From a virus, in the IMG/VR virus record IMGVR_UViG_3300007734_000633, positions 1 to 36,156 of that record: DNA of 36,156 bases, one strand, 5' to 3'. The notes under the pieces were generated by a model. That model was not told where the DNA came from, made no database searches, and worked only from the letters and a program-made list of their open reading frames with translations. A program made the position numbers and the translations under genes. Within the stretch, counting starts at the first letter, position 1, and each line of letters begins with the position of its first letter. This document shows, piece after piece, positions 19,193 through 25,216 of this stretch.

Positions 19193-19222
19193 TTGACTAG
19201 GGGTTTCCCTATACTGTATAAC
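19193..19222 (+). promoter_or_regulatory. Early + strand promoter
   Basis: TTGACT (19193-19198) and TATAAC (19217-19222) are separated by 18 bases. This is the best sigma-70-type match I found near the start of a transcription block. The expected transcription start is about 19228-19231, on top of the ATG at 19229. The spacer contains AGGG-gttt-CCCT (19199-19210), an inverted repeat that might bind a regulator. ACTGTAT occurs twice, 11 bases apart, across the -10. Confidence 0.65.
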
Positions 19223-19228
19223 TACTGT

Positions 19229-19537
19229 ATGAGTCCCACCCAGAGATCCCTGGCCTACCTCCGTGAGCGGGGGTATCGGTGCTGGATTACCGAAAGGTGG
19301 TGTCCGTACTCCCGCAAACGGATTGACCTGTGGAACTGTATAGACATCCTTGCGGTGGGTAACGGGGAGACCTTGGGGGTGCAGACCACCAGCCGAGGGA
19401 ATGTTGCGGCGCGGCACAAAAAGATAGTTGAGAACGAGTATTACCCAGAACTTGTGCGGTCGGGGTGGAAGATCCACGTTCACGGCTGGGGGAAACTAAA
19501 AGCCGGGTGGACGTTAAAACTTATTGAACTTAATTAG
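19229..19537 (+). CDS. Restriction-nuclease-fold-like protein, leaderless start
   Basis: ATG at 19229 gives 102 residues. An upstream TTG at 19193 is the promoter -35 and is rejected. The product has an N-terminal helix (SPTQRSLAYLRERGYRCWITERWCP), then RIDLWNCIDILAVGNGETLGVQTTSRGNVAARHKKI, which follows the D...(E/Q)xT/K spacing of PD-(D/E)XK proteins (ID-ILA ... GVQTTS), with Gln in place of the catalytic Glu. It may be an inactive nuclease fold or a resolvase-like DNA-binding protein. No Shine-Dalgarno is present, and the promoter position predicts a leaderless mRNA. It is the first gene of the + block and is followed by a structured gene-free region. Confidence 0.7.
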   Translation: MSPTQRSLAYLRERGYRCWITERWCPYSRKRIDLWNCIDILAVGNGETLGVQTTSRGNVAARHKKIVENEYYPELVRSGWKIHVHGWGKLKAGWTLKLIELN

Positions 19538-19556
19538 ATTCGTGGTATCCTAGCGG

Positions 19557-19680
19557 TGTCGGAAGTGACAAACCGGCATTTGGCGCGACCTTAGAACCTC
19601 TTAGTGAGGGCTTGTAGTCATCGTTTGGTTCGCGCCCGATGCTGGCCTGTCAAGCCCAAGTCTTCACTAAGGGGTTTTTT
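19557..19680 (+). ncRNA. Candidate attenuator RNA with two exclusive folds
   Basis: Fold A is a rod: TGACA (19566-19570)/TGTCA (19648-19652), CCGGCAT (19573-19579)/ATGCTGG (19639-19645) and GGCGCGACC (19582-19590)/GGTTCGCGCC (19627-19636, one bulge). Internal loops are only 2x2. Fold B is a nested terminator: AACCTCTTAGTGAGG (19595-19609) with CTTCACTAAGGGGTT (19662-19676), GGGCTTG (19608-19614)/CAAGCCC (19651-19657) and CATCG (19619-19623)/CGATG (19637-19641), ending in U6 at 19675-19680. The folds share bases 19637-19652, so they compete. This is the layout of an attenuator or riboswitch placed between the first gene and the rest of the + operon. The family is not known to me. Confidence 0.65.
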
Positions 19681-19685
19681 ATTTC

Positions 19686-19916
19686 CGGCTGCGACTATGC
19701 TGGTCAGGGTAACGGGCGGCGGCATAGGTCTAAGAGCAGACCGTGGGGAAGTTCCTGAAATACTGCACTAGGGCGGCGAAGTCAGCACCCTTGAGAACGA
19801 TAAGGCTGGCGAGTCAAGTGCGGCTCCGAAGGGCAAACTTGTAAAGGACTCTTTCATTTCTATGACAGGGATGGCTGAGTCTTGCTCACCAAAGGGCAAG
19901 TATCTATACATACTAG
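19686..19916 (+). ncRNA. Second structured gene-free segment
   Basis: No supported ORF covers this stretch. Several local helices can form: CTATGC (19695-19700)/GCATAG (19722-19727), GGTCT (19727-19731)/AGACC (19738-19742), GTCAGC (19781-19786)/GCTGGC (19805-19810), GAGTCAAGTGC (19811-19821) with GC-aa-ACTTG ... ACTC (19833-19851), and CTTGC (19881-19885)/GCAAG (19896-19900). GGGCGGCG occurs twice and a GCTC...AAGGGCAA block occurs twice. A perfect 10-bp palindrome (ATACTAGTAT, 19910-19919) stands before the next start codon. It may be a leader RNA, a separate small RNA, or part of a replication origin. I see no match to tRNA, tmRNA, RNase P or known ribozyme cores. Confidence 0.45.
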
Positions 19917-24709: not shown

Positions 24710-25216
24710 CCCGACCTCTGCCTTGCGGCGGCGCACCAGACCGGGCGTGACCTTTCCACCGCTGTTGACGTACTGCATAAAGCCGTCGGCAATTGTTTCT
24801 GGCGACTCGTTTCTAAGTATGCGCTGACGCAGGGTAGACCTTTGGAATCCACCCACGCCTATGTTAAAGGCCAGAGCGATGCAAGCGTCGAAGAGCGGCT
24901 GATTACCAACAAGATTAGGAGCAAGTCGAAGAACGCCACGCTCAAAAGAAACGAGATCAGCAACGAAAATTTTCTCCAGTTCGTCGCGCGACCAAATTCT
25001 GTTGTCCTCTTCTTTGAGCGGAAATTCATTTCGTATCATCCCCGTATATCCGTCCTTACGCACAATTGGCAGTTTTAATTGCTCGTTATACATAAGGTGG
25101 CCCCAACCCACGGTCCAGCAAAAGGCCGTACATTTATACGGCTTGTTTCTGTACCCCTCAAACTCATGCATCAGGTGGATGCCGCGCTCGGACGTTCTCA
25201 CTTCTTGTCCTTGCAA
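24689..25216 (-). CDS. Endolysin, T4/P21-type lysozyme
   Basis: This 175-residue protein has the E-x8-(C/D)-x5-T catalytic triad of glycoside hydrolase family 24: E20, C29 and T35 in HEFEGYRNKPYKCTAFCWTVGWGH. LFDACIALAFNIGVGGFQRSTLRQRI and SGGKVTPGLVRRRKAEVGLF give the C-lobe. It hydrolyses the MurNAc-GlcNAc bonds of peptidoglycan. There is no signal or signal-anchor sequence, so it should need a hole-forming holin for release. The start overlaps the GIY-YIG gene by 19 bases. It is the last late gene and ends convergently with the + block. Confidence 0.88.
   Translation of the reverse strand: MQGQEVRTSERGIHLMHEFEGYRNKPYKCTAFCWTVGWGHLMYNEQLKLPIVRKDGYTGMIRNEFPLKEEDNRIWSRDELEKIFVADLVSFERGVLRLAPNLVGNQPLFDACIALAFNIGVGGFQRSTLRQRILRNESPETIADGFMQYVNSGGKVTPGLVRRRKAEVGLFLNQG

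Follow-up and report, generated by a model that had tools for sequence, protein, structure and literature searches.

Transcription attenuators and other terminator-antiterminator leaders are known in trp-type, riboswitch-type and plasmid (pT181, pIP501) forms, and the ToxI RNAs of type III toxin-antitoxin systems form pseudoknots; to our knowledge, very few phage RNA switches work without a dedicated protein. The HK022 put RNA is about 70 nt long and consists of two stem-loops (PMC9378689), and the AbiF system RCd22 is organized as a promoter, a ~130-nt ncRNA, a terminator and a downstream gene expressed by readthrough (PMC12373285). Here we describe a phage RNA element, RNA-A, that is probably a so far undescribed on/off switch for genes required early by the phage. 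Comparison of related sequences shows the RNA and its helices, the competition between them, a promoter-like site and a closing helix, P0.

The element lies at 19557-19680 (plus strand) of a 36-kb virus record, the whole stretch analysed (36,156 nucleotides) being referred to as the window. The portal protein is 59.6% identical to those of unclassified spring-water records, and because its best match among phages with a named host is that of a Methylophilales phage (54% identical), we infer a beta-proteobacterial host. The gene 5′ of the element (19193-19537) encodes a small protein with no Pfam or PHROG match; it is absent from the 84,980 bacterial and archaeal species searched and has 112 relatives among viral contigs, with the element following right after the stop codon in about 45 of the 80 relatives kept. 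Among the products of the operon 3′ of the element are a replication-initiation-like protein, NinB, a RecA-dependent nuclease, a YqaJ/RecE-like exonuclease and an HNH endonuclease, and where this operon meets the minus strand genes there is a hairpin resembling a bidirectional terminator (25123-25144). The features of the locus are as follows.

19524..19551, plus strand: promoter-like site, sigma70-like, with −35 TTGAAC (19524-19529), 16 nt, and extended −10 TGG-TATCCT (19546-19551)
19557..19680, plus strand: structured RNA element RNA-A, class A, ~124 nt if terminated; based on fold z, 76 distinct homologues and covariance-model matches
19557-19562 / 19573-19578, plus strand: local hairpin P1, an alternative to P0, seen in prefix folds
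19558..19564 (GUCGGAA) / 19683..19689 (UUCCGGC), plus strand: closing helix P0, its 3′ strand lying beyond the U-run
19566-19570 (UGACA) / 19648-19652 (UGUCA), plus strand: rod helix 1, 5 bp
19573-19579 (strand a, CCGGCAU) / 19639-19645 (in strand x), plus strand: rod helix 2, 7 bp
19582-19590 (GGCGCGACC) / 19627-19636, plus strand: rod helix 3, 9 bp with one bulged U
19593-19607 / 19664-19678, plus strand: terminator stem S2, 15 bp, running into the U-run and crossing the rod as a pseudoknot
19608-19614 (GGGCUUG) / 19651-19657 (CAAGCCC), plus strand: inner extension of S2, 7 bp, in the nested fold only
19619-19623 (strand b, CAUCG) / 19637-19641, plus strand: inner hairpin b-x, 5 bp, in which b rivals the rod for x
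19627..19652, plus strand: shared 3′ region used by both folds, with the rod 3′ strands and x (19637-19645)
19675-19680, plus strand: U-run, UUUUUU at the end of S2
19693..19814, plus strand: Betaproteobacteria-1 RNA, Rfam RF02932 (RNA-B), cmscan 70 bits against a gathering score of 49.4

An earlier sequence-only reading had described a rod of 5, 7 and 9 bp helices with one bulge and 2x2 loops between them, and a competing stem of 15 + 7 + 5 bp ending in the U-run, with both folds needing 19637-19652; all of this is borne out. The rod as drawn has an energy of −32.4 kcal/mol, and the three helices of the nested stem come close to it at −30.5 kcal/mol. Folding z-scores are −2.9 for 19540-19690, the segment proposed for folding in that reading, −3.2 for 19557-19680 and −3.9 for 19557-19692, with none of 200 dinucleotide shuffles as stable in each case. 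When successively longer transcripts are folded (pseudoknots unscored), P1 forms first, the rod is then the minimum-energy fold for transcripts ending at about 19646-19670, and the nested terminator fold appears only from about 19676.

A search with a conserved 19-nt core yielded 93 stretches. These reduce to 76 distinct class A sequences, found in a wide range of genomic settings, and both these close homologues and several divergent classes come from freshwater phage contigs. Classes B (40 stretches) and C (8 stretches) differ from class A in sequence. Among the covariance-model matches found for the element, a rod-only model recovers class A together with a small number of divergent members (L100, L127, L134 weakly) and misses classes B, C and D, so that the classes are linked by topology and not by model score. 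A phage genome that has the element has, in essence, one copy of it: in the phage contigs searched, the class A model gives a single match per record, the two exceptions being a contig with repeated ends and a weak opposite-strand echo of one match. No homologue of RNA-A is found by blastn among 50,697 phage records, and the exact 19-nt core occurs once in 84,980 bacterial and archaeal species, beside a chorismate-synthase-like gene in an Acidimicrobiaceae MAG; as a single match is about what chance would give, we read this as absence of the element from sequenced hosts. The supposition that the element belongs to no named family also holds, since a scan of 19557-19680 against Rfam 15 gives nothing even at E<=5, and only the neighboring segment 19693-19814 has a match (RF02932). 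A literature search covering papers outside subscription found no publication on the element. We reject a protein-coding reading, the lengths not being multiples of three (they are evenly spread modulo three, 20/25/30) and there being no consistent open frame, and the conserved coding that would have spoken against an RNA is not seen.

Comparison of these relatives provides the main evidence for the structure. In class A all 64 distinct variants of rod helix 3 are paired, the first eight positions each show four or more pair types, and the native mean energy is −16.3 kcal/mol versus −7.4 kcal/mol with permuted partners, none of 2000 permutations being as good; this and the other permutation, shuffle and slid controls below take no account of shared ancestry, but helix 3 has changes numerous and diverse enough that hardly any doubt is left. 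S2, a-x and b-x in class A likewise each give 0/2000 permutations as good. When the rod and S2 are drawn together as a pseudoknot on 27 distinct class A sequences, 98.9% of cells are paired, and the relatives vary by compensatory change without breaking up the pairing; two-sided changes occupy 88 cells versus 25.5 ± 5.8 in shuffles, and sliding the partners by 1-3 columns leaves at most 47% paired. Within this set S2 has five pairs with two-sided changes, the changes in rod helix 2 are mostly one-sided, and the first four pairs of rod helix 1 are invariant; class B supplies a two-sided change in helix 1 (UGGCA:UGCCA). The GGCUUG/CAAGCC pairing of the inner S2 extension is invariant in class A and hence uninformative. 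An independent RNAalifold consensus chose the rod, and in classes B and C both S1 and S2 covary. The overall helix layout is retained while the sequence turns over quickly, and because the homologues keep the pairing of both rod and outer stem we judge the element to be real and the existence of a structured RNA at 19557-19680 to be near certain.

Strand x in class A (19637-19645) has two possible partners, a in the rod and b in the hairpin inside the nested stem. The loop closed by b-x is taken up by the 3′ strand of helix 3, with at most a few nucleotides left unpaired, and on this geometry the rod and b-x should be sterically exclusive. Class B has the same arrangement on a larger scale, and there its 3′ strand covaries with both candidate partners: against the rod strand the native value is −14.2 and the permuted −9.4, and against b −15.8 and −11.4, with 0/5000 permutations as good in each case. 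This dual covariation is direct comparative evidence of a conserved either/or choice and the strongest result of the study, and two exclusive, conserved pairings around a shared strand, the hallmark of an attenuator, are thus found in both class A and class B. The proposal that only one full fold can form needs to be recast, however. There are indeed two exclusive folds, both selected in the relatives, but the exclusive pair is the rod and the inner hairpin, not the rod and the terminator; the rod and outer S2 both covary in the 27 sequences, and as an aside in the sequence-only reading had foreseen, they cross and can coexist as a pseudoknot. The outer stem of S2 and the U-run are therefore common to both states, and because this stem can form in either fold we do not class the element as a proven attenuator.

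The 5′ end appears to be set by the promoter-like site. Across 25 upstream contexts sharing less than 60% identity, the distance from the end of a −10-like hexamer to the RNA is usually 6 nt (range 5-9), and a promoter score of at least 8/12 at fixed spacing is reached in 18 of the 25 unrelated upstream regions (72%) versus 3.6% of background. In L031 and L039-L041 the upstream gene stops earlier, and the −35/−10 pair is still conserved. This fixed spacing and the retention of both boxes suggest that 19557 is probably the transcription start and that the element probably starts its own transcript. The earlier placement ahead of the replication and recombination operon stands, but the element is not simply an intergenic leader, having its own promoter-like site in 25 contexts. 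An antisense promoter was looked for on the opposite strand near the element, with no match. In L208, L249 and L270 the upstream gene is divergent and the element's promoter is the only evident source of transcripts of RNA-B and the operon, which argues that polymerase must at times get past the terminator.

At the 3′ end, the intrinsic-terminator-like end proposed earlier is conserved in all classes: GC-rich S2, with compensatory changes, runs into UUUUUU in the window and into four or more U in every class. An RNA with its own promoter-like site and such an end could be a stand-alone, very stable sRNA acting in trans, for example by binding a host protein or mRNA or as a decoy or antitoxin-like RNA, with promoter and terminator setting its ends, the rod tying the 5′ end into the terminator loop as a guard against decay, and some readthrough feeding the operon as in type III toxin-antitoxin leaders. 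The retention of the whole architecture despite quick sequence turnover fits this, and a layout of promoter, ~130-nt ncRNA, terminator and readthrough is proven for AbiF RCd22 (PMC12373285). We nonetheless consider it unlikely, since a static sRNA has no need of the alternative b-x fold, the element usually sits just ahead of another structured RNA and the early operon, and P0 links it to sequence past its own terminator. A type III toxin-antitoxin system (with a ToxN/AbiQ/TenpN/CptN or Abi_2 toxin) is rejected because the element has no tandem repeats and the genes next to it show no toxin family in Pfam or PHROGs, which also argues against an antitoxin-like sRNA.

The evidence for P0 comes from between the classes. 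Relatives carry a UUCCGAC-like sequence just after the U-run, and across classes none of 2000 permutations couples the two strands as well, with two-sided changes to GUUGG/CCAAC (L033), ACUGG/CCAGU (L264) and, in class B, GUCAGCGG/CCGCUGAC; within class A alone the coupling is weak (47/2000 permutations as good) because GUCGG hardly varies. P0 is possible only in RNA that extends past the terminator, and the readthrough RNA thus appears to be under selection. The module goes further than the 3′ limit of 19680 drawn for it previously, as P0 reaches beyond the U-run and RF02932 follows at once. In L213, L222 and L291 an ORF of ~73 aa (MSKRK...) begins at the U-run, with the P0 strand and the next RNA coming after it. 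The closure by P0 and the occasional ORF raised the question of a group I intron, retron or homing-type RNA, which we set aside: no reverse transcriptase is recognized adjacent, and the insert is only the ~73-aa ORF.

Our preferred reading, to which we give about an even chance, is that the element is a bistable, pseudoknot-forming 5′ leader that follows an early phage promoter directly and serves as a conditional intrinsic terminator (a transcription attenuator). The transcript would begin near 19557. One state would have P1 and the inner b-x hairpin, and S2 would close as an ordinary nested hairpin at the U-run, terminating transcription and releasing an RNA of ~124 nt. In the other the rod (helices 1-3) would form once 19627-19652 has been transcribed and would enclose the 5′ arm of S2 within a loop. 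S2 could then form only as a pseudoknot, slowly relative to RNA polymerase; readthrough would be favored, the 5′ end would pair with 19683-19689 (P0), and the RF02932 RNA (19693-19814) and then the replication and recombination operon would be made. Because S2 is common to both folds the rod is no simple block of the terminator, and the readthrough step rests on the kinetic argument that a stem of 13-24 bp with its 5′ arm locked in a closed loop should form slowly. The order seen in prefix folding, with the rod first, and the close energies of the two folds (−32.4 and −30.5) favor a conditional terminator. Also on its side are the covariation of the competing helices, the fixed promoter spacing, the U-run behind S2 in every class, the coupling of P0 across classes, and the lack of any other strong plus strand intrinsic terminator between 19700 and the operon end near 25123. 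Some factor would set the balance; neither a ligand-like pocket nor a leader peptide or trans factor was recognized.

The position immediately downstream of an early promoter, like that of putL (PMC9378689), together with the complex and compact fold and the formation of P0 and the rod in the readthrough RNA, would also suit a processive antitermination RNA similar to HK022 put, in which the leader binds the elongating RNA polymerase and takes it past its own and later terminators. This seems to us quite improbable: put has ~70 nt and two stem-loops (PMC9378689), the element itself ends in a terminator, and no other strong plus strand intrinsic terminator that would need suppressing is seen in the window from 19700 to the operon end near 25123. 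Membership among the put RNAs was rejected for the same difference of architecture.

The attenuator-like leader appears to be one module of a larger arrangement. The second RNA behind it varies, being RF02932 in the window and one of several unnamed types elsewhere; at least five more unnamed, apparently structured RNAs (~150-240 nt) occupy the RNA-B slot in L002, L005, L007, L025, L035, L040, L208 and L248, extending up to the next start codon and with no Rfam match among those scanned. Conversely, elements of class A, B or C stand ahead of 24 of the 60 distinct stretches resembling RF02932, and others are preceded by promoter, S1a, S2a, S1b, S2b and U-run elements of unrelated sequence (L087/L134, L106/L157, L118/L131/L190/L156 and L127), these extra classes being read by eye from the sequence and the permutation tests covering A, B and C only. 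Many of the remaining RF02932-like stretches directly follow a primase-like gene, as in Acidovorax phage AP1 (L340, OM049504.1), where an unannotated RF02932 RNA at 2475-2598 separates the primase gene from the gene that follows. In related phages int-alpA RNA (RF02996) is located behind the same nuclease-like gene (L050 3346-3415, L063 3324-3392, L068 3327-3396, L073 3327-3396).

This juxtaposition raises the very improbable alternative that the b-x hairpin is a mere folding intermediate, the pseudoknot a structural 5′ domain of a larger RNA-A plus RF02932 RNA, and the U-run a structural U-rich strand and not a terminator. P0 closing a domain beyond the U-run, RNA-B following directly, and the P0 strand being left intact behind the ~73-aa ORF that separates the U-run from it and from RNA-B (L222 and L291) are all in keeping with such an RNA, but RF02932 is also found without RNA-A behind a primase gene, and every class has the form of an intrinsic terminator, a GC-rich stem with at least four U behind it. 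Returning to the conditional terminator, we tentatively propose, as something possible rather than probable, that bistable pseudoknotted cassettes of the promoter-switch-terminator kind form a modular superfamily widespread in virulent freshwater phages, with at least seven sequence classes sharing one topology (S1a-S2a-S1b-S2b-UUUU) and exchangeable second RNAs (RF02932 and several undescribed), in which a host or phage factor would gate the early operon and the terminator would be conditional through pseudoknot topology, not simple strand competition.

Sequence comparison alone establishes here, at an early promoter, an unnamed RNA in which two competing folds are conserved and a terminator stem crosses the rod, and it gives Betaproteobacteria-1, an orphan Rfam family, a place within a modular phage leader. 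It also makes testable whether a pseudoknot with the 5′ end creates a conditional intrinsic terminator, and whether this times early phage gene expression.

Among known systems, RF02932 is likewise a phage-borne structured RNA and adjoins the element in the window and in many relatives, but it differs in sequence and structure and is a separate module, beginning 13 nt after the U-run and occurring elsewhere without RNA-A; int-alpA RNA, which fills the same slot in related phages, is a different family and not in the window. Like put, which acts in cis, the element is a structured RNA with which an early phage transcript begins, but at ~124-190 nt it is longer, pseudoknotted and ends in a terminator-like U-run; no Rfam or phage-database match links the two, which are set apart here by architecture. 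With type III toxin-antitoxin and AbiF leaders it shares a promoter, a compact ncRNA of ~100-130 nt, a Rho-independent terminator and readthrough to the next gene, yet it lacks their tandem repeats, has a clear alternative fold, and is followed by RNA-B and replication and recombination genes, with no toxin. The attenuators offer the same order of parts: a promoter, then a structured leader whose competing pairings share a strand, then an intrinsic terminator ahead of the regulated genes. The element departs from those known in standing at a phage early promoter, where neither a leader peptide nor an antisense promoter or known ligand site was seen, and in having its terminator stem in both states, the alternative being a rod in a pseudoknot with that stem.
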